IMG/VR virus record: IMGVR_UViG_3300048800_000018
Location: 1 to 31,968 of that record
Source: a virus
DNA: 31,968 nt
Direction: 5' to 3' (one strand)
A program made the translations under genes and the position numbers. Each line of letters opens with the position of its first letter. The first letter of the stretch is position 1. The notes under the pieces were generated by a model. It had not been told where the DNA came from and ran no database searches. It was given only the letters and a program-made list of their open reading frames with translations. Positions 1,882 through 26,881 of this stretch are shown here, piece after piece.

Positions 1882-2312
1882 AGCTGCAATACCGTTTATT
1901 CATAGACGCGTATCTCAAAGAACCGAATGCAACAAAAGCCGCTATTATAGCAGGATACAGCGAGAAAACAGCAAAACAACAAGGGTCAAGGCTGTTGACT
2001 CAGGTTGACATTGTAGCAGAGATGGAAAGAATTAAGCAAAAAGTGACGGCCAGTTCTGAAATATCCGCAGAATGGATACTCACCAGCCTTAAAAATGTAG
2101 CTGAGAGATGTATGCAGGCGGTGCCAGTTATGGAAAAGACGGATGGCGAATGGAAGGAAACAGGCGAATTCCGATTTGATTCTACGGGTGCCAACAAAGC
2201 ACTAGAGACTCTTGGTAAAAACTTGAACTTGTGGAAAGATGTAGGCAGCAAAGAAAACCCTCTTACTGGTAATGTTACCGTGTCTATGAGCAAAGAGGAC
2301 GCCGCCCTTTGA
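1842..2312 (+). CDS. terS: Terminase small subunit
   Basis: 156 residues of the Terminase_2 type, which binds phage DNA at the packaging site and hands it to the large subunit. Residues 18-62 hold the family's helix-turn-helix signature: the aromatic FIDAYLKEPNATKAAIIAGY, then SEKTAKQQGSRLL and a hydrophobic VDIVAEMERI. The following helices (residues 70-110) would drive ring oligomerisation, and the C-terminal tail would contact TerL. The position directly before TerL, with a 4-base overlap (TTGA), supports the call. Whether packaging is by cos or pac cannot be told from this protein alone. Confidence 0.93.
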   Translation: MQETAKETDKSTLKLQYRLFIDAYLKEPNATKAAIIAGYSEKTAKQQGSRLLTQVDIVAEMERIKQKVTASSEISAEWILTSLKNVAERCMQAVPVMEKTDGEWKETGEFRFDSTGANKALETLGKNLNLWKDVGSKENPLTGNVTVSMSKEDAAL

Positions 2313-3664
2313 CCTGCCAGCTCACGGCAAAGCAGTTAGAAGCGCAAAAGCTCCTTGCGGGGAACGCTACCTATATCCAACTTGAGGGTGGTAGCCGCAG
2401 CGGAAAAACTTTCCTTCTCACTCGTGCCGTTGTAACCAGGGGAGTCAAAGCCCCTCAATCCCGCCATGCCATTCTTCGTCTCAGATTCAACCACGTCAAA
2501 GCGTCCATCGTGTTAGATACATTTCCGAAGGTGATGGACCTGTGTTATCCAGAAATTAAATACACGATGGATAAAACAGACTGGTACGCGACCCTTCACC
2601 ACAATGATTCTCAAATATGGTTCGGAGGATTGGACGATAAGCAGCGAACAGAGAAGATACTTGGGATGGAGTATGCAACCATCTACCTCAATGAAATATC
2701 ACAGATACCGTTCGCGTCTCGTGAATTGGCCGTCACCAGGCTCGCTCAGAAGGTCGATTGCGTCATCAAGGGTATAGACCCCTTCCCTTTGAAATGTCGG
2801 ATGTATCAAGATTGCAATCCTCCGAAGAAAAGTCACTGGTCGTATAAGCTGTTTCACGAGAAGCGCGATCCCGATTCAAAACTCCCTTTAACTAATCCCC
2901 TTGACTACGAGTGGATGCAGATCAATCCGCAAGACAACCTTGCCAATATATCCCCTGAATATCTCAAGACGCTTGAGTCGCTGACTCCCAGAATGCGCCG
3001 GCGCTTTCTCGAAGGGCTCTATACCGACGATGTGACCAACGGCCTCTTCAATTCAGACATCATCGAGACATACCGCAAGGCACAAGGCGCACTCCCTGAC
3101 ATGGTGCGTATAGCAATCGGCGTTGACCCCAGCGGCTCGGGTGATGAAGACAACACAGATAACGACGAGATAGGGATTGTGATAGTTGGGCTCGGAGTTG
3201 ATGGTAACGCCTATCTGTTGGAAGATTGCACCGTAAAGGCTGGCCCTGGTACATGGGGAAAGGTTGTTGGTTCCGCATACGACCGTCATGAAGCTGACGT
3301 GGTTGTCGGAGAGGTGAACTACGGCGGTGCTATGGTTGGCTTTGTTGTCCAGACTGCCAGGCCACGGACTAACTTTAAGGCCGTCACTGCATCAAGAGGG
3401 AAGGTTGTCCGGGCTGAACCGTTCTCAGCGTTGTACGAATCCGGGAAAATTCGGCATGCCGGGTACTTTCCTGAGTTGGAAGACGAGATCGTAGAGTTTA
3501 CGACGAATGGTTATCTGGGTGATAAATCACCGAACAGGGCCGATGCCTTGTTCTGGGCGCTGACTGAGTTGTTTCCCGGTATTGTGAACAACCGCAAAGC
3601 AAACGCAATGGCTCCTGTTGGTTCGTTTGATTTCAAACCACTCAGCGGCAACATGGGCTATTAA
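2309..3664 (+). CDS. terL: Terminase large subunit (ATPase/nuclease)
   Basis: 451 residues forming the packaging motor. The ATPase half has a Walker A GGSRSGKT (27-34), a Walker B-like TIYLNEIS (124-131, E129 catalytic) and a coupling motif QDCNPPKKSHW (167-177). The RNase H-like nuclease half has IGVDPSGSGDED (D273), VVGEVNYGGA (E335) and NRADALFWA (D412), the three expected metal ligands. The start is TTG at 2309, overlapping the TerS stop. AGAGGA lies nine bases upstream and no ATG fits as well, since everything before Walker A would otherwise be lost. Length is normal for short phage terminases. The protein acts at the portal vertex during head filling. Confidence 0.95.
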   Translation: MTCQLTAKQLEAQKLLAGNATYIQLEGGSRSGKTFLLTRAVVTRGVKAPQSRHAILRLRFNHVKASIVLDTFPKVMDLCYPEIKYTMDKTDWYATLHHNDSQIWFGGLDDKQRTEKILGMEYATIYLNEISQIPFASRELAVTRLAQKVDCVIKGIDPFPLKCRMYQDCNPPKKSHWSYKLFHEKRDPDSKLPLTNPLDYEWMQINPQDNLANISPEYLKTLESLTPRMRRRFLEGLYTDDVTNGLFNSDIIETYRKAQGALPDMVRIAIGVDPSGSGDEDNTDNDEIGIVIVGLGVDGNAYLLEDCTVKAGPGTWGKVVGSAYDRHEADVVVGEVNYGGAMVGFVVQTARPRTNFKAVTASRGKVVRAEPFSALYESGKIRHAGYFPELEDEIVEFTTNGYLGDKSPNRADALFWALTELFPGIVNNRKANAMAPVGSFDFKPLSGNMGY

Positions 3665-5432: not shown

Positions 5433-5789
5433 ATGATTGACCGGATATTCATCAAAATATCAGACGCACTCGGGACCAATGCGGCTATTGTCTGCTTTGC
5501 CCTGATTGCGTTTGTACCTCTATATTTTCAACAGCCTCATACCATTATGGAGTGGACGAGCTGGTTATCGCAGACATGCATCCAGTTGATCGCCTTAGCC
5601 GTCTTGCAAAAAGGAACGCGAATAGAAGGTGAGAAACAGGCTCGGTTGATACTCGAAACTCACGATGCCGCAGTTGCCATGAGGCAGGAAGAAAACACCC
5701 GCGCAGAAGAACGCCACGAAGAATCAATGGCAGAAGCGCATATGCTCAAAGAACTGACAATCGGATGTTGTAAAGGGAAGATGAGATAA
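5433..5789 (+). CDS. Two-helix membrane protein (118 aa)
   Basis: ATG at 5433 with AAGAGGGC upstream; the ATG at 5429 is followed at once by a stop. Two hydrophobic segments (about 16-32, NAAIVCFALIAFVPLYF, and 42-60) are joined by a short loop containing QQPH. A charged helical tail (60-105, KGTRIEGEKQARLILETHDA onward) predicts a coiled coil. The order of two membrane helices then a long charged helix resembles low-affinity Fe/Cu permease-like small proteins and some holins. Since a better holin candidate lies beside the endolysin, I leave the role open. It overlaps the portal start by one base (TAATG). Confidence 0.65.
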   Translation: MIDRIFIKISDALGTNAAIVCFALIAFVPLYFQQPHTIMEWTSWLSQTCIQLIALAVLQKGTRIEGEKQARLILETHDAAVAMRQEENTRAEERHEESMAEAHMLKELTIGCCKGKMR

Positions 5790-8125
5790 TGAACTTCTCG
5801 ACTGACACACAGGGTATGCCCCCCGACTTTGAAGGCAACATCCCTCCTGAGATTAAAGCACTCGCAGAAGAGATGAAAGCCGCTCAGATGATGAAGGTCG
5901 ATCAGATTGGTAAGGAAGTCGCCAAGAAGCGCGACGAAGCTGTCAAGACCCGTAAGCAGTCTGGTATTGAAGACCAGTGGGAAGAGGACGAGGAATACTA
6001 TCAGGGCGTTGACGACACAAACCGCGACTCGCACCCTTGGATAAAGTCAGCCTCCACATCCGGGGGTATCTCACGGCAGCCGCAGAAAGCAAACACTCGC
6101 TGCACATCGTTCTTTAACATCACCGGCCAGTTTGTCGATTCAGCAGCGGCAAGGATGGGCGATATCCTTTTGCCGGCCGGTGATTGGAACTTCTCTGTTA
6201 ATCCAACTCCCCTTCCTGATGATGGCAATCCACAGAGTCAAACGCAACTCGGACAGTTGGCTAATACTCCACAAGCGCAGCAGCAGGTTTCTCAGCAGTC
6301 GCTTGTCATGGACAACAAGGCTGAGAAGGCCGAGACGTGGATCAAAGACAAACTGACCGAGTGCAGCTATCACTCCGAAGTACGCAAGGTTATTGAGGAT
6401 GCTGCCAAGCTGGGCGTCGGAGTTCTCAAGGGTCCGTTTCCTGATAAGGTAACATCCTGCAAATCAAAGCAGGGCGCGAACGGCGTGACGCTGGAGATAG
6501 TGGAATCAGTCGAACCCGTATCCAAGCGCATCGACCCGTGGGACTTCTTCCCTGACCCCGCTTGTGGCGACAACATTCACAAGGGCGGATATACCTGCGA
6601 GCGGGACCGGATATCTCCCAAGCAGTTGAAGGGCATGAAAGACCTTCCTGGATACCTTGCCGACCAGATTGACCATGTTCTACACGAAGGCCCGAACAAG
6701 AAACACCTTGGTGACAACGGCCAGAGGAAATCAGGGAGCGAGATAGACGACAGCGAGATGTTTGAAGTCTGGTACTTCTACGGGCTTATCCCTGTTGACA
6801 GTTTTGCGGCCATTGGCTCAATAGCGAACAAACCGCCTGTGAAAGATGGAGAGCCTACACCTCCTATCCTTGACGATAAAGACCTTTCCAGAGATATGTT
6901 GCCGGCCATCGTTACGATGGTCAACGACACGCCCATCAAAGCCGCTATCAACCCGATGGACACGGGGGATTTCCCTTACGATGTAATGGCGTGGCAGCCC
7001 GTTAAAGGCAGCTGGACCGGCGTAGGAGTGGCGAGGAAGGGCAGAACGCCGCAGGACATGCTCAACGCGTCCGCCCGAAACCTGATGGACAATGCCGGTC
7101 TTTCTGGTGGCCCGATGATTATCATCAAAGACGGTGCCATCATGCCTCAGAATGGGATATGGGAGATATCCCCCAGGAAGGTATGGAGAGCTACAGAGGC
7201 ATACAGTGGTGACCTGAAAGATGCTTTCACGGTTATTGAAATCACTATGGTGCAAGAAGAACTCACGGCCATCATTCAGCTTGCCTACAAGATGATGGAG
7301 GATGCAACAGGCATTGCTTATCTGCTTCAAGGTCAGCAGGGTAGTGCCCCCGATACCGTGGGTGGTATGGAACTCTTGCATCGCAATGCTTCCGCTATTC
7401 TCCGATTTTTGGCAAGGGTATTTGACGAGCGAATCACTGAGCCCCACATCAAACGATATTACGACTGGCTTCTTCTCAATGGTCCCGATGACGCTAAGGG
7501 GGACATGAAGATAGAGGCCATCGGTTCGACCGCCTTGGTTGAGCGTGAGATTCAAGCACAGGATTCAATGACGCTGCTGAACTTGGCTGTCAATCCCATT
7601 TTTGGACTCGACCCGGCCAAGGCTATTATCGAAGTGCTGAAGGCTAAACGGTTTATCCCTGAGAAGTGGACCCGCGACCCCGGCACTCAGGCACCGGCAC
7701 CGGTCATCCCCGCTATTGAAGTCGCCAAAATCCGCGCTGCAAGTGACGAGAAGATTCATGAGCATCAGACTGAACTCGACCAGTGGAAAGCCAAAGTTGA
7801 AACACAGTACGGCCTCAAGGAACATGAGGTTGTCACTGCGAGAGAGCAGATTTACGCTCAGACGCGGCAGATGGAAGTTGTAGACAATGCCAACGCAAGA
7901 GCGCAGGAGCTACAGGTCAAAAAAGAATTGGCGATTATGGACTATGCCAACAAGCGCAACATCTCGCTAGACCAGGTTAAAGCATCTTTGGCCTCTGTCG
8001 CGATGAAACTTCGTACCCAGCGGATTCTATCAGGAGTACCAGACGCGAAATCAGCACCACAGGTTATAACACCCGATGCAGAACCAGTACAGCATGCGCC
8101 AGATGGGATGGCGTTTCAGGAGTAA
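5789..8125 (+). CDS. Portal (head-tail connector) protein
   Basis: 778 residues, the size of large podovirus portals. The N-terminus is acidic and helical, followed by EDQWEEDEEYYQGVDD and SHPWIKSASTSGG, and then by FFNITGQFVDSAAARMGDIL and LLPAGDWNFSV, the mixed alpha/beta wing region. The centre has KRIDPWDFFPDPAC, seen in portal proteins of this type, and the stem/crown region GGPMIIIKDGAI. The long C-terminal part (about 600-740) is helical coiled coil (AEVAKIRAASDEKIHEHQ-like), the barrel that hangs into the head. Twelve copies would form the ring through which TerL moves DNA. The position between terminase and scaffold/capsid supports the call. Assignment rests on length, layout and motifs, not on an alignment. 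Confidence 0.85.
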   Translation: MNFSTDTQGMPPDFEGNIPPEIKALAEEMKAAQMMKVDQIGKEVAKKRDEAVKTRKQSGIEDQWEEDEEYYQGVDDTNRDSHPWIKSASTSGGISRQPQKANTRCTSFFNITGQFVDSAAARMGDILLPAGDWNFSVNPTPLPDDGNPQSQTQLGQLANTPQAQQQVSQQSLVMDNKAEKAETWIKDKLTECSYHSEVRKVIEDAAKLGVGVLKGPFPDKVTSCKSKQGANGVTLEIVESVEPVSKRIDPWDFFPDPACGDNIHKGGYTCERDRISPKQLKGMKDLPGYLADQIDHVLHEGPNKKHLGDNGQRKSGSEIDDSEMFEVWYFYGLIPVDSFAAIGSIANKPPVKDGEPTPPILDDKDLSRDMLPAIVTMVNDTPIKAAINPMDTGDFPYDVMAWQPVKGSWTGVGVARKGRTPQDMLNASARNLMDNAGLSGGPMIIIKDGAIMPQNGIWEISPRKVWRATEAYSGDLKDAFTVIEITMVQEELTAIIQLAYKMMEDATGIAYLLQGQQGSAPDTVGGMELLHRNASAILRFLARVFDERITEPHIKRYYDWLLLNGPDDAKGDMKIEAIGSTALVEREIQAQDSMTLLNLAVNPIFGLDPAKAIIEVLKAKRFIPEKWTRDPGTQAPAPVIPAIEVAKIRAASDEKIHEHQTELDQWKAKVETQYGLKEHEVVTAREQIYAQTRQMEVVDNANARAQELQVKKELAIMDYANKRNISLDQVKASLASVAMKLRTQRILSGVPDAKSAPQVITPDAEPVQHAPDGMAFQE

Positions 8126-9604: not shown

Positions 9605-10681
9605 ATGGCACTGTCCAGCATGCTCACACCCGCACAACGAATCGGGAAGCTCAAAGGTGAGATACTTACCCATGCTATCCCCCGCGAAATACTCGGCCTC
9701 ATTGGCGACACCAAGCCCATGCCGAAAAACGTCGGTGATACCGTCATCTATCGTCGCTGGTTGCCGGTCAACGCAACATCAGCCAGCCCCAACACCTTCT
9801 TTGCATCCACCGACACCGGCGACCGCACAAACGCCCTGGCAAACGCACACCTTGCCAGCGAAGGCGTAACACCCAACGCTGAGACGCTGACCCCGCAGGA
9901 CATCACGGTCACACTGAATGAATACACTGTCCTGTTTGGTTACACCAAGCGAACCGCCGACCTGTACGAAGATGATGTGCCGGCCGCGATGAAACTTCAG
10001 ACCGGTGAGCGCCTTGCACTCGTCCGCGAGCTGGTACGTTTCGGGCAGGCCAAGGCATGCACCAACAAGTATTATGGCGGCACAGGGACTTCCAGGGCCA
10101 CCGTAAACGGCAAACTGTCCCTCAAACTGCTCCGCAAGATCACCAAAGGTCTTGACGCACAGCACACCGACAAGGTTACGGAGATTCTGGACGCCTCCCC
10201 GAAATACGGGACACGGGCAATCGAGGCCGGTTTCTTCGTGTTCATCCATACCGACCTGAAGCCTGATGTCCGCGATATCCCCGGTTTCGTACCGACGGCA
10301 TCTTATGGCACACGTCAGACCGTATCCCCCCATGAAGTCGGTTCGGTCGAAGAGTTCCGTATCATCGCCAGCCCTGAACTGGTCAGCGTCATTGATGCTG
10401 CTACCAGCGTCAACGCAACTACCTCCGGCCTGACTTCCACCGGTGGAACTTATCCCGACGTGTACCAGGTCATCGTTGCCGGTCGTGGCGCATGGGGTGA
10501 CGTGGCTCTTCGCGGCACAAAGTCGATGGATGTTCACGACCTCAAACCCGGCCAAGTCGATAAAAACGACCCCACCGGCCAGCGCGGTTACATGGGCGCA
10601 TCTACCTATTACGCCGCCGTCCTGTTGAACCAGCTTCAGATGGCCGTTGCTGAAGTCGGCGCATCCGTCCTGTCTGACTAA
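9605..10681 (+). CDS. Major capsid protein, N4-gp56 type
   Basis: 358 residues with the features of the N4-gp56 capsid family (HK97 fold). The N-terminal stretch KGEILTHAIPREILGLIGDT is followed by GDTVIYRRWLPV, and by the spine region ITVTLNEYTVLFGYTKRTAD, matching the family's variable-substrate, LNEYG-like strand and helix. The C-terminal half has FFVFIHTDLKPDVRDIPGF, GSVEEFRIIASPE and a final tract (YMGASTYYAAVLLNQLQMAV) typical of the end of these proteins. The AAAGGAG site is close to ideal, and the gene is bracketed by hairpins on both sides, as expected for the most abundant virion protein. Hundreds of copies would form the shell. Confidence 0.9.
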   Translation: MALSSMLTPAQRIGKLKGEILTHAIPREILGLIGDTKPMPKNVGDTVIYRRWLPVNATSASPNTFFASTDTGDRTNALANAHLASEGVTPNAETLTPQDITVTLNEYTVLFGYTKRTADLYEDDVPAAMKLQTGERLALVRELVRFGQAKACTNKYYGGTGTSRATVNGKLSLKLLRKITKGLDAQHTDKVTEILDASPKYGTRAIEAGFFVFIHTDLKPDVRDIPGFVPTASYGTRQTVSPHEVGSVEEFRIIASPELVSVIDAATSVNATTSGLTSTGGTYPDVYQVIVAGRGAWGDVALRGTKSMDVHDLKPGQVDKNDPTGQRGYMGASTYYAAVLLNQLQMAVAEVGASVLSD

Positions 10682-19151: not shown

Positions 19152-20357
19152 ATGGGATTAGCATTTCAGGGGTTAATGGGTGCCTTAGCCGGGGCAGGTA
19201 ATTCAGCAGCAGGCGCGATGCAGATGAACATGGCCGCTCAACTCCAACAGGAGCGCGACGCTGCTAATGCTGTTCGAGAACAGAACCTCGCCAAACTGAG
19301 AGGTTCTATCGAACTGTCGAACGCACAGACAGTCCACGGGATGCAGCCCTCAACATCCTACGACCCCGCGACAGGTCGGCAACTCACCTATGACGAAGCG
19401 GCACAGGCTGACCCTGCATCCGTTACAGGGCAAAAGACAGCCGAACAGAACGCCACAATCAGCCCATACACGGTCAACGGCTTGCCGGCAACATATTCAC
19501 AGGTCGGCGCAGCAGGGGCAGCGAATAACACAACCACAGGGCTTATACAGAAATACACCGCCGCCGGCGATGCTATGGACCATGCAGCCAACAACGACCC
19601 GAACATGGTAGGGCCGCAAGTTTTCCCCAATACCCCCGGTGCGCGTTCAGGCAATTTGACTCCTGAAGAACAGGCACAACTCGACACGGCGCAGAGCAAA
19701 GGCGGATTAATTAAGTACACGCCAGAAGCTATGCTTGAAATGAAGTTGGAAAACCAGAAGGCGTTGAGTGAAAACAAGCTCGAATCATGGAAACAAGTCG
19801 CTGATATCAGAGCGCAAGCGGTCATGCAATCTGCTGATACACGGCTACAGGCCGCCATTGCTGTTGCCAACATCCATGCAACAAGCAAAAATTCAGATGA
19901 ATACAGGCAAGCTCAGATAGAGGTTAAGAAAGCCGAAGAGGAGCGCAAGAACGCCAACGCCGCCGGACTCTTGATTTCAGGGGGTGCAGATTTCACCAAG
20001 CCCGAAGTTGTATCACTCTACAACAAATACATGACAGGGGCGGGGATGCCGGAAGTCACCAAGCCGCCGCCAGACGCACCAAAACCGAAAGACGACGGGC
20101 CTGGACCGGTTAAAAAGTTCATATCCGGTTTTGTTGGCCAAGGGGATTATTCCGGTCAAAGTACTACTGCACCAACTGCGCCAGACTTGACAGGGACAAA
20201 CCCAAGTGGCAAAAAGTCACCAAACCCGACACTGGATTCTCAAGCGCAAGATGCTATATCAGCGATTATGTCAAACAATTCCCTTACAGGTCCGCAGAAA
20301 AGCGCGAAGGTGGCACAGGTAGCGACTCGTCTTAACGCTATCAAGGCAGGGAAGTAA
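19152..20357 (+). CDS. Internal virion-type helical protein (401 aa)
   Basis: ATG at 19152 with ACGAGGTGA upstream. The hydrophobic Gly/Ala start (FQGLMGALAGAGNSAAGAMQ) is followed by Gln/Ala helices (MNMAAQLQQERDAANAVREQ), a spacer and a long charged helix (about 195-285, MLEMKLENQKALSENKLESW and IEVKKAEEERKNANAAG). The tail is Pro/Lys-rich. It has no catalytic motif. Its composition and its place directly before the giant protein make it a probable ejected core protein. The last base of its stop overlaps the ATG of the giant gene (TAATG). Confidence 0.6.
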   Translation: MGLAFQGLMGALAGAGNSAAGAMQMNMAAQLQQERDAANAVREQNLAKLRGSIELSNAQTVHGMQPSTSYDPATGRQLTYDEAAQADPASVTGQKTAEQNATISPYTVNGLPATYSQVGAAGAANNTTTGLIQKYTAAGDAMDHAANNDPNMVGPQVFPNTPGARSGNLTPEEQAQLDTAQSKGGLIKYTPEAMLEMKLENQKALSENKLESWKQVADIRAQAVMQSADTRLQAAIAVANIHATSKNSDEYRQAQIEVKKAEEERKNANAAGLLISGGADFTKPEVVSLYNKYMTGAGMPEVTKPPPDAPKPKDDGPGPVKKFISGFVGQGDYSGQSTTAPTAPDLTGTNPSGKKSPNPTLDSQAQDAISAIMSNNSLTGPQKSAKVAQVATRLNAIKAGK

Positions 20358-23300
20358 TGCCCGGCCCTTTTGATGATATTGTAGGAGCACCTCAGCCATC
20401 GGGCAAATCGAATCCCTTTGCGGATATTGTAGAGGGATCGTCGGTCGATTTTGCCAAGCAAGGGCTTACCCGTAAGGGCTTAATTGGCTCGGCATCTGGA
20501 CAAGTTGCCAATGCAGTATATGATGCTGATATCCAGCCCTTATACCCCGGCGGGATGAAAGACGCGTCAACACAAGATATACAGAATATCGCGGCGTCGC
20601 CACATCGGCCAGTTCCAACCATGGCGGTTCAAGCGGAGCAAGTTGCACCTGACCTTGTATCTGCTTTCGAGAATGCCCCTAAAGACAAACTTGGTACTGC
20701 TACCAGCGGGTATTTGAATGAAGCCGTCAACGTCAAGTCGACCGAGAAGATGGGGGATTACCTCAAGCCCGGTCCGTCCACTCTTACACAACGGGCAACA
20801 ACCGCCGTTGCGACATCCATCCGAAACATAATCAATAGCACCGGTAAATTAGGACTCGGAGTTATCGGGGCAGTAGCGCCTTCACTTCTCGGTGGAGATG
20901 ATGAAATAGCCCAGACATATCAAGAAGGTCTTAAACTCGACCAACAGTTTGACGCAGAAACCCACGGCATAACCCCTGCCAACTCTATTGCAGACCACTT
21001 TGTAGATATCGCTGGGAACATAGCGCCTTATATTGCTCTTGGACCAATGGCGTCTGCCGGGATGGTTTCTCATGGTATTGTTGCCGGCGGTGAGCAATCG
21101 CTTAATCAGGGGCAGGATGCAACCACAGCCGCCGTGAAGGGGACAATAGGCGGCATTGCATCATACATGCTCACTAAAATCCCAATGACCGCTAAAGGCA
21201 TTGCAGCGGCACCTCTTGTCGGAATTGGGGAACGGTGGGAAAGCAACCACTTTTCACCCGACGACCAGAAGCAACAGGTGCTCGACCCGAAAGCAATCGC
21301 AACGGATTATGGTACGTTCCTGGCTTTTAACCTTGTCCACAATAGTGGTTTACTTCGCCCAGCTTATGAAGCGGCAAACGGCGCAACGGTAGGCATAAAG
21401 GCTTCTGGACAAGACTATGAAGGGCTCCGGCAGGCTTATATGTTTGCCAGAGGCGTACAGGACGGCACCCCAGAAGCTGATATAGCAGAGGCGTTTTTAT
21501 CACGGGGTATTGCAAACAGCGGCGGAATGAGTAAGGCAGAAGTCCGACAGGCTGTTGACCAACTCAGAAGAGTAGGTGCCGACAGGGTACTTGCCGAAGG
21601 CGAACCAGCAGAACCCACACCATCAGGACCAGAATCACAGATAGGCGCTACCACTACTGAGCCTGTTACTACAGCGCCAGAAGCGCCGGCAGTAACCCCA
21701 GATGCCAGCGCCCCCGAAGTAAATCAGACACCTGCCCCCGGCCTCACTGTTGACAAAGTATCCGCCATCCGCGCCAAACTGGAAGCCATGCGGAAGCCTG
21801 CCGAGCATATCCCTGATATCGGTATAGGCAATCCTGATATCACCGTTGACGATGCGATCAAGGCTGCAAGTGCAGAAGTGGATAGCGCAACCGTCCCCGA
21901 CAACATTGATTACGATACTGGCTTGCCGGTAGCTCAGACCGCCGCTATTCCTCCCGCATCTCCCATGGCCGCCCCCACCGTTGATACCGCCATTCAATCA
22001 GCAAACGAATTGGCCGGAACTCCCGAAACGTCCCTCCCCGTTCCGGTAGAAGATTCGGCTAATCCTCCGGCGGGGGTGTACCCTCCTGCATCCCTGCCGG
22101 GGGTAACACCTTCGGACGTGCCAAGCGTACAACCCGCAACAGTACCAGAGCCGGTACCAGTCAAACAGCCGTGGGAAATGACACATCAAGAATATTGGAA
22201 TACTAAACATACAGGAAACAATGGGGATGACGTTACACGGGGCCACTACAAAGCAGTAAAAGCGGCTGTTGGCGCTGGTAAGCCAGTACCCGCCGAAGTA
22301 CTGGCAGACTATCCAGACCTGAAGCCCGTTTCCCCCATGGCGCATAAAGCGCAGGCACTTGGAAATGAGGCACAACCACTTGACCACGGAGTATTGAACC
22401 TGCCGTTAGGCTCTCGCGCAAGAGGCGGCAGTATAGATATCCCTGTTGACCACAACGGAAACGCCGATGTTCAAGCCTTTGCCGACATGGTGAAATCCCA
22501 CGCCACGGGTACGCCGGCCGTTCATCCCGACGATGTAGAGGCAATGCTTGATAAATTCCCCGAATTAGAGCAAACTGATATTGAGGGAGATTTGCAGGCC
22601 ATTGACAATGAGGCCGATAATTTCTCGGAACATGAACTTGAACCGCTTACACAGGAGGCACTAGATGAAGCTTTCAACCGCATTGACGACCCGTTTGCAG
22701 AGCACGGTGGCGAGGTTGCCCCACGACAAGCGAATGATGTACCTACAGGCGATGAAAAACAGGTTCAAGTCGCAGGTGATGGCAAACATAGCATCGAGTC
22801 CAACGGAGCCACAGGAACCGAGCGAACCGCAAGAACCGTAGAACAGCCATCGTTACTCACCGGCCAGCGCAAGTTTGGTGTGACCGCTGAAAAGAAAGGT
22901 GGTCAGTCCGTCGGCACAAGTGATTTCATGGACGGTTTCACCCATGACTGGACACCGGACTTGTTTGCGGAAGAGCCAGCACATAATTACTCCCCCACAT
23001 TGACACTCCCCGAAAACGCGGCTATAGTTGAGCAAGCAAAGAGCAATGCCAAAGAACAGCTTTCGTTCGACTTCAGGGAGGGTACAAGCGATGTCCAGAA
23101 AATCAGAACGCAAAAACTCGTTAGAGACTTGGTGCGTGGACGGCAAGGAGTCAGACCCTCCCTACTCGGCAACGCCATCAATACCGCCTTCGTCAAAAAA
23201 GGCGTCTTCAACTTCGTCGGTCAAAAAATAACCTCACCACTCGACCTTGCTTCACTGGCACAGGTCTACCGCAATCCCTCGTTTGAAACACTCCGCTACT

Positions 23301-26300
23301 TCTTTGTCAAAGACGGTGTAATCGTCGGACAAACCGGCGTATCATCCCGGCTTCCGTCTGTATCCTATGCTTTCCCCGGCGCATCAGGATATGCCGAAGA
23401 ATCAGGTTTACCATGGTTGAAAGACCAAATGGCGGCTGTTGATGCTGATGGTTACTGGCTACTTCACAATCACCCCAGCGGGAATGTCAGCGAGTCCCAT
23501 GCGGATATAAGCTTGACGCAGAGAATATCCGAAGAGGTACCGGGATTCAAAGGGCATGTGATTATCAACCACAACAAATATGGTATACTGACCCAAGAAG
23601 CTGGAAATCCCGAATGGGTAAAAGAGATTAAAGGGAAAACAGAGTACCACGTTTTTGACATGGCACCCGACGACATGCACACAGCCAGCGTCGATAACCC
23701 GTATTTAGGGCGTGTAGTCCAGAAACCCGATGATATTGTATCTATCGGTAAAGAGATGCAGCAACCCGGTCATACCCTGCTAATCGTGCAAGGTGGCAGA
23801 GGTGCAGGTATCCGTGGCATTATGGACATCCCCCCCGGATTATCGCAAACCCGCCTTGCCGCCATTACAAGGAAACTTGCGTTAGATTCCGGCGGCGGAC
23901 AGGTCTTCGCGGTTCTTCCTGATTCAACTTCCGAGTACAACCTATTTGCTCAACGCGGTATCCGAGAAGGGTATTTGCTGGATGCTGTTGACCCGTCTGG
24001 TAAGTCGATGCGGACGATGGGTATTACTCCCAGCAAGAACAAGTATTTTGGCAAGCCAATATCGGGGCAGGTGGTAATGGAGGATACCCCGGATTACAAC
24101 CCCGGCAACTTTGTCAGTAATACAACCCGCTCTTTTATCGACAAGGACGTAAAGAGGATAGTCGGCGACGGTGGCAAAGGTTTTGTAGAATCCCTCCAAA
24201 TGATCCGCCACGCACTCACTCCCACGTCAGGAGTGAAAGCCAAGTACCTTGACGCGGTAATGAGGATGAAGGGTGATCAGGACAAGACAGAGTACATGAG
24301 GGAGGTCGTCGGCAAAGAGATTAAGGATATGTTCGAGAAGATGCCACAATCCGGACAGGTGGCGTTTATTGACAAGGTAAAGACCGGACACCCGCAATCA
24401 ACTCCAGAACTTCAAGCCATAGCCGATATGATGCGTGATATCGATACAGCGACATGGAACGAGGCGAAGGAATTTAAACCTACCCTCGCATGGAAAGAGA
24501 ACCATTACCGCGTGCTCTGGAAAGTAATACCGGGCCAGGACTCCGCCGGCGATGCGGTCAAGCGGTTCTTTGGCGGTCGCAGGCCTCTACAGGGTTCCAA
24601 AGGCTTTATGAAGCAGGCAACCCTTGAGGACATGAGCCAAGGGCTTGACATGGGTGGAGAGCCACAGTCATACAATCCATGGACGATGTTTTCTATGGCG
24701 CAAGCTGATATCGAAAAGTTTGTCACCGCTCAACGGATGTGGAAAGAAATCGGAGAACTGGGTGGCCGGAAGTTTGTCAGACAGGGACAGACGGCACCGG
24801 AAGGATTCACCAAGCTCAATGACCGTCTAGCAAAGGTCTTTTTCCCGATTGAGCATTACGGTAAATGGATAGAATCCGAGGAGATCAAGGATCTTCGAAA
24901 CAACATTTCTGAGACGATTAACACTTCAAAAGCCGCAGGTGAAAAGACACCGGCCGATAAGGTTGAGAACACACTGACAGAAGCACTAGAAGCGCGTGGA
25001 TGGAGCAAGGGCGAAGCGGCGCAGATCATCAGCCGTGTAAAGTCGGCACCGGCCACAGAGAACGAAACAACCACGATTGAGAGGACCATCGAGCATATCA
25101 TTTCAGTTGAGAAAACAAAGGAATTCAAACCGGGCAAAGGCTTTGTTGAACTTGGTGAATGGTGGGTAGACGAGGGTGCCGGCCGGATACTCAACAATCA
25201 TCTTTCAAGGGATTACGTCCGTGAGGCGGCTTTAGGGCGCGGACTTCTTGCAGTCAAGAACAACACAACCGCCATGGAACTTGCCCTGTCGCTGTTTCAC
25301 TTCACCTTTGAGACTGTCGAAACGGCAAGTTCTCAAGTTGCTCAAGCGGCAAGGAAGATTTACAACGTCGGCATATTACAGCGCAACGTAAGGATGATCG
25401 GCGAAGGTTTGAAGGACTTGACTGCTGCCCCGGTTTCCCCGGCTTCTACGGCGCGATTAGGCGGCTCTGTTATCAAATACATTGCCAGTCCTGAAGAGTT
25501 TTTGGCTACTGGGCGGGGACAGAGTTTCGTTAAGGCGCACCCCGAAGCTACGGAAATGGTCAACGCTCTTTTCCATGGCGGCGGCAAACTTGCTATGCAC
25601 CAGGACTACAAAATCAAGTCACTTGAGACCATGAAGGAGAACGCGAAAGAGGGAAATTACATCGGGGCCGCAGTAAGGGCAATCCCCGCGTTGAATGAAG
25701 TCCTGATGAAACCACTCTTTGAAACCTACATTCCCCGATTGAAGATCGGGATGTTCTTCAAGGAATACCCCCTCAGACTTCAGGAGAGGGCGCAGGACAT
25801 CGCCGACGGTAAGGTATCGAAGGAAACCCTAGCCCGTGAGACATGGGCCTTTGTAGAGGACCGTTTAGGAGAGATGAACTTTGATAATCTTTTCTGGAAT
25901 CGGACTTTCAAGTCTTCCATGCAGCTCATGTTCAGGTCGGTTACATGGAAACTCGGTAATATACGGGCTATGGGCGGGGCAGGACCAGAGCAGATGAAGG
26001 ATTTTTATCAAGCATATAAAGATAAACGTGCTCCGAGGCTTGAACCTAAAATGGGGTGGTTGCTTGGAATGGCCGCATTGACAGCGGCAATGAGTTCGAT
26101 TATCCAGAAGATGTTTACTGGCGACGACCCGCAAAGCGTCAAGGACTTGGTTTATCCGAGGGTGGGTAAGACAGATAGGGTAACAACGCCTACATACATC
26201 AAGGACGCTTATCATCTCTTTCACAATCCCACGGGTTACGTGACTTCCTCCCTTGCCGGCGTATGGGGAAGGGTAGCAGACAACTGGCAGAACAGGGATT

Positions 26301-26881
26301 TCTACGGACAAGAGGTCTATGGTCTGGACGACAATTCATTCGAGAAGTACGCGAAAGAGTTTTTCCATACTGTACCGAAACCGTTTTCAATTACGAACGC
26401 CCTCGCGCAGAAAAACTCCGGCATGCCGACCGCGCAACGAGCACTTGCTTTTGTGGGTATCAGCAAGGCACCGGCCTATATCAATTATTCACCGGCAGAG
26501 AACAGAGCTTTTGAAATCATGGAACGTCACCCGCGAGGGACTAGAACCGAGGAAGAAGTAGGGCGGTCCAAGGCAGCCAAGCAATTTCTTAATGCCCTCC
26601 GCGAGAAGGCACAAGACCCGCAAGAGGTCATATCCAACATGCATGAGGCACAGAGGGGAGGAAAGATTACCTCAAAGCAGATTGCATACATAATGAAGAA
26701 CCAGAATACCCCCTTGCTTGTTTCAGCAACACGGGCTTTTACGGCACAGGAGATGGCCGAAGTCATCAAGAAGGCTACACCGGAAGAGATACAGGAACTT
26801 AAAGTTCCGTTCTTGCGCAAAATCAATAATGCCCAGATTGAACCAGGCGAGAAATCAGCGTACAGGGAATTGTTGCAATAA
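20357..26881 (+). CDS. Giant polyvalent internal virion protein with RadC-like JAB domain
   Basis: 2174 residues, the largest gene here. Residues 1-330 have Gly/Ala hydrophobic stretches (near 165-180, 221-245 and 259-275) that may touch membrane. After a Pro/Ala/Thr linker, residues 605-660 hold GKPVPAEVLADYPDLKP, a motif of polyvalent proteins carried by phages and conjugative elements. Residues 970-1095 form a RadC-like JAB/MPN domain: HNHPSGNVSESHAD gives H1037-x-H1039-x7-S1047-x2-D1050, the JAMM zinc-binding pattern. A further alpha/beta domain lies near 1115-1235. The rest (1250-2174) is helical, with FDNLFWNRTFKSSMQLMFRS and a hydrophobic helix near 1899-1920, like the large C-terminal domains of such proteins. 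It is probably packed in the head and injected. Zinc protease or deubiquitinase-like activity is possible but unproven. Confidence 0.75.
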   Translation: MPGPFDDIVGAPQPSGKSNPFADIVEGSSVDFAKQGLTRKGLIGSASGQVANAVYDADIQPLYPGGMKDASTQDIQNIAASPHRPVPTMAVQAEQVAPDLVSAFENAPKDKLGTATSGYLNEAVNVKSTEKMGDYLKPGPSTLTQRATTAVATSIRNIINSTGKLGLGVIGAVAPSLLGGDDEIAQTYQEGLKLDQQFDAETHGITPANSIADHFVDIAGNIAPYIALGPMASAGMVSHGIVAGGEQSLNQGQDATTAAVKGTIGGIASYMLTKIPMTAKGIAAAPLVGIGERWESNHFSPDDQKQQVLDPKAIATDYGTFLAFNLVHNSGLLRPAYEAANGATVGIKASGQDYEGLRQAYMFARGVQDGTPEADIAEAFLSRGIANSGGMSKAEVRQAVDQLRRVGADRVLAEGEPAEPTPSGPESQIGATTTEPVTTAPEAPAVTPDASAPEVNQTPAPGLTVDKVSAIRAKLEAMRKPAEHIPDIGIGNPDITVDDAIKAASAEVDSATVPDNIDYDTGLPVAQTAAIPPASPMAAPTVDTAIQSANELAGTPETSLPVPVEDSANPPAGVYPPASLPGVTPSDVPSVQPATVPEPVPVKQPWEMTHQEYWNTKHTGNNGDDVTRGHYKAVKAAVGAGKPVPAEVLADYPDLKPVSPMAHKAQALGNEAQPLDHGVLNLPLGSRARGGSIDIPVDHNGNADVQAFADMVKSHATGTPAVHPDDVEAMLDKFPELEQTDIEGDLQAIDNEADNFSEHELEPLTQEALDEAFNRIDDPFAEHGGEVAPRQANDVPTGDEKQVQVAGDGKHSIESNGATGTERTARTVEQPSLLTGQRKFGVTAEKKGGQSVGTSDFMDGFTHDWTPDLFAEEPAHNYSPTLTLPENAAIVEQAKSNAKEQLSFDFREGTSDVQKIRTQKLVRDLVRGRQGVRPSLLGNAINTAFVKKGVFNFVGQKITSPLDLASLAQVYRNPSFETLRYFFVKDGVIVGQTGVSSRLPSVSYAFPGASGYAEESGLPWLKDQMAAVDADGYWLLHNHPSGNVSESHADISLTQRISEEVPGFKGHVIINHNKYGILTQEAGNPEWVKEIKGKTEYHVFDMAPDDMHTASVDNPYLGRVVQKPDDIVSIGKEMQQPGHTLLIVQGGRGAGIRGIMDIPPGLSQTRLAAITRKLALDSGGGQVFAVLPDSTSEYNLFAQRGIREGYLLDAVDPSGKSMRTMGITPSKNKYFGKPISGQVVMEDTPDYNPGNFVSNTTRSFIDKDVKRIVGDGGKGFVESLQMIRHALTPTSGVKAKYLDAVMRMKGDQDKTEYMREVVGKEIKDMFEKMPQSGQVAFIDKVKTGHPQSTPELQAIADMMRDIDTATWNEAKEFKPTLAWKENHYRVLWKVIPGQDSAGDAVKRFFGGRRPLQGSKGFMKQATLEDMSQGLDMGGEPQSYNPWTMFSMAQADIEKFVTAQRMWKEIGELGGRKFVRQGQTAPEGFTKLNDRLAKVFFPIEHYGKWIESEEIKDLRNNISETINTSKAAGEKTPADKVENTLTEALEARGWSKGEAAQIISRVKSAPATENETTTIERTIEHIISVEKTKEFKPGKGFVELGEWWVDEGAGRILNNHLSRDYVREAALGRGLLAVKNNTTAMELALSLFHFTFETVETASSQVAQAARKIYNVGILQRNVRMIGEGLKDLTAAPVSPASTARLGGSVIKYIASPEEFLATGRGQSFVKAHPEATEMVNALFHGGGKLAMHQDYKIKSLETMKENAKEGNYIGAAVRAIPALNEVLMKPLFETYIPRLKIGMFFKEYPLRLQERAQDIADGKVSKETLARETWAFVEDRLGEMNFDNLFWNRTFKSSMQLMFRSVTWKLGNIRAMGGAGPEQMKDFYQAYKDKRAPRLEPKMGWLLGMAALTAAMSSIIQKMFTGDDPQSVKDLVYPRVGKTDRVTTPTYIKDAYHLFHNPTGYVTSSLAGVWGRVADNWQNRDFYGQEVYGLDDNSFEKYAKEFFHTVPKPFSITNALAQKNSGMPTAQRALAFVGISKAPAYINYSPAENRAFEIMERHPRGTRTEEEVGRSKAAKQFLNALREKAQDPQEVISNMHEAQRGGKITSKQIAYIMKNQNTPLLVSATRAFTAQEMAEVIKKATPEEIQELKVPFLRKINNAQIEPGEKSAYRELLQ

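Follow-up and report, generated by a model that had tools for sequence, protein, structure and literature searches.

The giant protein encoded in the window, a 31,968-base IMG/VR virus record that we analysed over its whole length, carries a RadC-type JAB domain with a complete set of active-site residues. According to structure prediction and profile comparison, this domain is followed by a second RadC fold without metal ligands, which had been overlooked when the sequence was first read. RadC is not confined to the polyvalent proteins of conjugative elements, and the view of Iyer et al. (2017) that it occurs only there is corrected and extended. We consider it probable that the giant belongs to the phage polyvalent ('payload') proteins and that its central JAB metallohydrolase, with a degenerate RadC partner in cis, would be delivered by the virion and cleave a target. 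Its fold, its complete and conserved active-site residues, the tandem, the phage late-gene context and the swapping of modules are established by computation.

The gene is a single ORF with an ATG start and is part of a cluster comprising TerS, TerL, the portal protein, the major capsid protein (phrog_1357), tail genes and an endolysin for lysis (Table 1). A giant among virion genes, here one of 2174 aa in a TerS-TerL-portal-MCP-tail-lysis cluster, is what Iyer et al. (2017) describe for phage polyvalent proteins. The earlier note had taken the virus for an N4-gp56-type phage, which is borne out by the phrog_1357 match and by the identity of the capsid protein to those of MW202426 (47.8%) and Pseudoalteromonas phage vB_Pun_Y3 (34%), the latter annotated as an N4-gp56 family capsid. 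The 401-aa upstream gene matched no family, and a PADLOC search gave no match. By eye, positions 1-200 of the window appear to encode on the - strand part of an HNH endonuclease truncated by the window edge. Searches of 50,697 phage records and of viral contigs with the whole giant yielded nothing and the corresponding PDB sequence search only chance-level matches; relatives emerged only once the JAB segment alone was used as query.

Table 1. Positions in the window of the giant gene, its parts and selected neighbouring genes
Feature	Position	Strand	Basis or remark
Terminase large subunit	2309..3664	+	phrog_979 1.8e-69
Portal / head-tail adaptor	5789..8125	+	phrog_332 7.2e-40; SU10_portal
Major capsid protein, N4-gp56 type	9605..10681	+	phrog_1357 2.8e-55; 47.8% to MW202426 MCP
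401-aa gene directly upstream of giant	19152..20357	+	possible internal virion protein by position alone
Giant protein, 2174 aa	20357..26881	+	ORF; inside late structural gene cluster; polyvalent-like, probable internal virion/ejection protein
Short module, residues 593-671, including GKPVPAEVLADYPDLKP (641-657)	22133..22369	+	phmmer matches in giants L051, L054
Catalytic RadC-type JAB domain, residues ~945-1091	23189..23629	+	Pfam RadC; AF2 vs 2qlc; hhalign to RadC
E977, predicted catalytic glutamate, in RNPSFETLRYFF	23285..23287	+	kept in viral relatives; aligns with chromosomal RadC Glu
H1037-N-H1039-PSGNVSE-S1047-HA-D1050, predicted metal-site motif	23465..23506	+	conservation among viral relatives
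Second, degenerate RadC fold lacking metal ligands, residues ~1118-1223 (1105-1269 in the profile match)	23708..24025	+	hhalign; AF2
C-terminal region, residues ~1263-2115	24143..26701	+	common to viral giant L174, which is without the JAB module

The assignment of the first domain is based on several lines of evidence. The exact H-x-H-x7-S-x2-D motif reported earlier at residues 1037-1050 (HNHPSGNVSESHAD) is indeed present and is the sole match in the six frames of the window; with an expected count of about 0.003 in the shuffled protein, a chance motif is ruled out. The Pfam RadC model PF04002 matches with 26 bits (E 9.6e-6), above its cut-off of 22.1, and hhalign aligns the module with 27 chromosomal RadCs at a probability of 99.5 (E 2.9e-23). 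In this profile alignment E977 falls on the conserved glutamate of the chromosomal proteins. The statement that the catalytic glutamate of JAMM enzymes is not evident was therefore wrong, E977 also being kept in the viral relatives. Structure prediction and a fold search, as the earlier note had suggested, gave a confident JAB fold for residues 902-1287 (AlphaFold2, pLDDT 81.9), with RadC 2qlc as the best solved match (Foldseek probability 1.00, E 9.9e-7; VIA Z 13.9, rmsd 2.1 over 116 residues) and P. furiosus JAMM1 (PfJAMM1) in second place (Z 9.2). The Pfam score, the JAB fold and the JAMM residues E977, H1037, H1039, S1047 and D1050 together make this a RadC-type JAB domain. The giant is not an orthologue of chromosomal RadC, a protein of ~230 aa with an N-terminal UPF0758/HhH part, since it is 2174 aa long and scores only 23 and 21 bits with the full-length RadC models, whose cut-offs are 180 and 134.

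The active site is retained in relatives that have diverged considerably. Eleven positions (R972, E977, T978, R980, H1037, N1038, H1039, P1040, S1041, S1047 and D1050) are invariant in 72 aligned viral modules with about 26-40% identity to the window; these rows were chosen by the string H-x-H-P-S-x5-S-x2-D, so the invariance of those letters is partly due to selection, from which R972, E977, T978 and R980 are exempt. Nine more loci without the exact string all retain E977, both histidines and D1050, and eight of them differ at S1041 (HNHPT, HNHPA or HNHPG). The ninth, L042 (L042:6639-7373), is a natural active-site variant in its own right, a viral module with every JAMM residue except S1047, which is replaced by Gly (NHPSGSVNPGRSD). 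The viral scan produced 188 relatives, and in the best 80, which were retained, E977, H1037, H1039 and D1050 occur in 80/80 and S1047 in 79/80, each of these loci having been picked up via an E-containing or HNHPS pattern. Apart from S1047 in L042, the four motif residues accordingly do not vary among these homologues, a possibility that had been raised as an objection to the JAB assignment. That the whole active site is conserved speaks for catalysis.

The second domain, as modelled, has the same fold and a different fate. Residues 1112-1262 align by hhalign with the first domain (score 43.3, probability 93) and with chromosomal RadC (39.5, probability 83); no reversed or column-shuffled profile scored above 19.2, and none of eight other regions above 12.3. 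Folded alone by AlphaFold2 (pLDDT 84), it again matches 2qlc (Z 11.6, rmsd 2.3, 105 residues); the runner-up structure reaches Z 5.3. Its metal ligands are missing: HxH is found in one of 64 members and the full motif in none. The tandem was present in all 87 viral ORFs examined, mostly giants of 1,800-6,400 aa, a count that includes near-duplicates and is biased because the viral matches were ranked by alignment spanning both domains. Bacterial genomes yielded about 31 loci with the tandem; none of the 27 chromosomal proteins of RadC length has it, and tblastn with several module versions located it nowhere in 50,697 phage records, a set from which records close to the window may be missing. 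Four named bacterial genomes encode a tandem-bearing giant as well as separate RadC-sized proteins. Module-bearing loci that may be prophages occur in Quisquiliibacterium transsilvanicum DSM 29781, Aromatoleum buckelii U120 and Acidovorax soli. A literature search limited to open-licence papers found no described phage RadC giant or tandem.

Most ORFs among the best 80 of the 188 viral relatives encode 1,800-6,400 aa, and outside the module at ~905-1250 they have almost nothing in common with the window giant. In 50 viral records with JAB giants, a TerL match was found in 33, a phrog_1357 match in 14 and VirB4 in none. The TerL match of the L007 record (G002:32900-34456) spans in-frame stop codons (one TGA, three TAA), possibly reflecting a pseudogene, an intron or a frame problem. 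Among 33 giants scanned, Pfam RadC was present in 32 (20/20 and 12/13) and LPD38 in 16 (10/20 and 6/13), followed by ART-PolyVal (9), ddrB-ParB (7) and InPase (4); PBECR5, MuF_C and Acb1 were each found once. Since giants bearing the module carry LPD38, ddrB-ParB, ART and InPase, it seems to belong to the payloads of phage polyvalent proteins. An extended example is the 4698-aa giant L059:2906-16999, in which the tandem JAB is accompanied by an SLT transglycosylase, LPD1 and an anti-CBASS domain of the 2H/Acb1 type, with a weak match to a phosphoribosyltransferase as well. Phages with capsid and portal genes of the window type carry giants with other payloads, namely LPD23 and LPD38 in MW202426 and ddrB-ParB, ART, LPD5 and LPD1 in vB_Pun_Y3. 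A tree built by the quick method sets the chromosomal RadCs apart on a fully supported branch and places the window module among viral giants, while Nitrosomonas proteins of ~375 aa group with four viral ones with moderate support.

The C-terminal half of the window giant reappears in the 1905-aa protein of L174 at 36-44% identity (43.7% over 1598-2115 and 36% over 1263-1516). The L174 protein has no match to the JAB or the second domain, and the presence of this half in a JAB-less giant fits payload swapping. In the N-terminal part of L174:6100-11817 a GNAT acetyltransferase-like stretch (DKGKGYGKQIYRELNKQAE) can be seen by eye and is without a Pfam match. Assignment of the window C-terminus to LPD38, a C-terminal domain that marks the phage type of polyvalent protein without being obligatory, was dropped because a mere 19-residue likeness at the expected place scored no better than shuffled columns. 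Polyvalent proteins as described by Iyer et al. (2017) unite at least two disparate functional domains, and the relatives with the module have several. In Pfam, RadC is the sole payload domain of the window giant, to which the degenerate RadC fold is added; the label 'polyvalent' rests on relatives and context because a second Pfam payload domain is lacking. Further upstream, residues 593-656 match the viral giant L051 (2.5e-8) and residues 603-671 the giant L054 (2.2e-7) by phmmer, a near-exact GKPVPAEVLADYPDLKP motif occurring in L051 only. A module of this kind had been described as preceding the JAB domain; it does exist, but ~300 residues ahead of it and not adjoining. The supposed membrane-like N-terminal tracts are doubtful, the best 19-mer mean hydropathies in the giant being 1.27 at 226 and 1.37 at 1902.

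Several known systems can be compared with this arrangement. RadC in polyvalent proteins of conjugative elements, such as WP_107787995 of a Nitrosomonas plasmid and an SNF2-related protein of a Treponema plasmid, is likewise a RadC-type JAB with ETLR/ETFR and HNHPSG motifs and 28-45% identity, and WP_107787995 even has the second domain. In contrast to these, the window module resides in a giant of a phage late-gene cluster and its relatives are joined to phage-only domains. Chromosomal RadC (UPF0758; 2qlc) shares fold and active-site residues with the window module but lacks the added second fold and branches separately. The active/inactive MPN pairs Rpn11-Rpn8, CSN5-CSN6 and BRCC36-KIAA0157 likewise pair a working JAB with an inactive partner of the same broad fold, whereas both window copies belong to the RadC type and form a single polypeptide. 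Automatic 'RadC-like JAB' names exist in UniProt for uncultured phages; one such protein, A0A6J5M0M8 (UniProt/BFVD 'RadC-like JAB domain containing protein', uncultured Caudovirales, 1429 aa), aligns with the two-domain model across some 330-366 columns, its name being automatic annotation only.

With respect to delivery, a precedent is gp69 of JC1, a 4515-aa DarB-like giant of Bcep22-like podoviruses that is encoded, like the window giant, in a virion module and that mass spectrometry has shown to be part of purified virions (PMC9144972). It is annotated as DarB-like, and the JAB module was not found by tblastn in sequenced phage records. Delivery along with the genome is presumed for polyvalent proteins (PMC5512222), and by analogy with both we infer that the window giant would be located in the virion and enter a new host together with the DNA. 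There the JAB domain would bind zinc and act as a hydrolase on a host target or one related to defence, possibly in counter-defence or takeover, and the degenerate copy may serve as a docking or regulatory surface, as in the MPN pairs. The earlier proposal of an injected giant acting at entry holds in its likeness to injected polyvalent proteins, through the domains of its relatives, and in its late-gene context; the remainder is inferred. In a bolder and rather unlikely version, a phage two-domain RadC family would be delivered from the virions of many uncultured phages and would unmark or cut a defence target such as a ubiquitin-like conjugate.

As for the bond that would be cleaved, JAMM chemistry on peptide and isopeptide bonds is established for other JAB families, and because of this analogy we lean slightly towards such a bond rather than one in nucleic acid; we know of no RadC-family enzyme with an established substrate. 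That the module might instead be a nuclease or another nucleic-acid- or nucleotide-processing enzyme, acting at entry on host or phage DNA or on signalling nucleotides, is a serious possibility to which we give somewhat less than an even chance. It is suggested by Iyer et al. (2017 and 2012), who argue from domain context and from the missing ubiquitin-tail groove in RadC. Helicase, methylase, ddrB-ParB or Acb1-type domains in some JAB giants would be compatible with it. However, the residues E-HxH-S-D are those found in JAMM enzymes that cleave peptides, and the literature searched gave no report of RadC nuclease activity.

The JAB domain could also be a protease that processes its own giant, in place of the zincin MPTase of other polyvalent proteins, which would agree with the scarcity of MPTase-PolyVal in JAB-giant records (1/50, as a separate 295-aa ORF) and in the giants scanned (0/33). 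Yet LPD38-bearing ORFs of 300 Burkholderiales genomes are equally without MPTase (0/8) and four of those genomes have stand-alone tandem JAB genes beside an MPTase gene; JAB and MPTase are therefore not alternatives, and replacement of the MPTase by the JAB was reduced to a weak rival that we regard as improbable. It seems similarly improbable that the giant acts solely in the producing cell during assembly: its late-gene position would suit assembly as well as packaging, but those polyvalent giants that have been examined, namely N4 vRNAP, the P1 Dar proteins and JC1 gp69, belong to the virion. A JAB that is no longer an enzyme but a structural or binding surface in the virion is very unlikely, because active-site residues kept across divergent modules are unexpected without catalysis, even though the ligand-less copy behind it indicates that non-catalytic use exists in the RadC-fold family.

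RadC is without an agreed biochemical function, and this phage family, which is diverse, keeps its active site, brings its own inactive partner and is probably delivered by the virion, provides a natural setting for finding the substrate of RadC. It also contributes a candidate activity for early infection or counter-defence, here in a module seen only in uncultured phages and in bacterial-genome loci that may be prophages. The tandem is also found outside giants, in L011:2883-6906 and four Burkholderiales genomes, where a stand-alone tandem JAB gene of ~370-430 aa adjoins a zincin MPTase gene, the two forming a recurrent two-gene unit in conjugative or similar elements.
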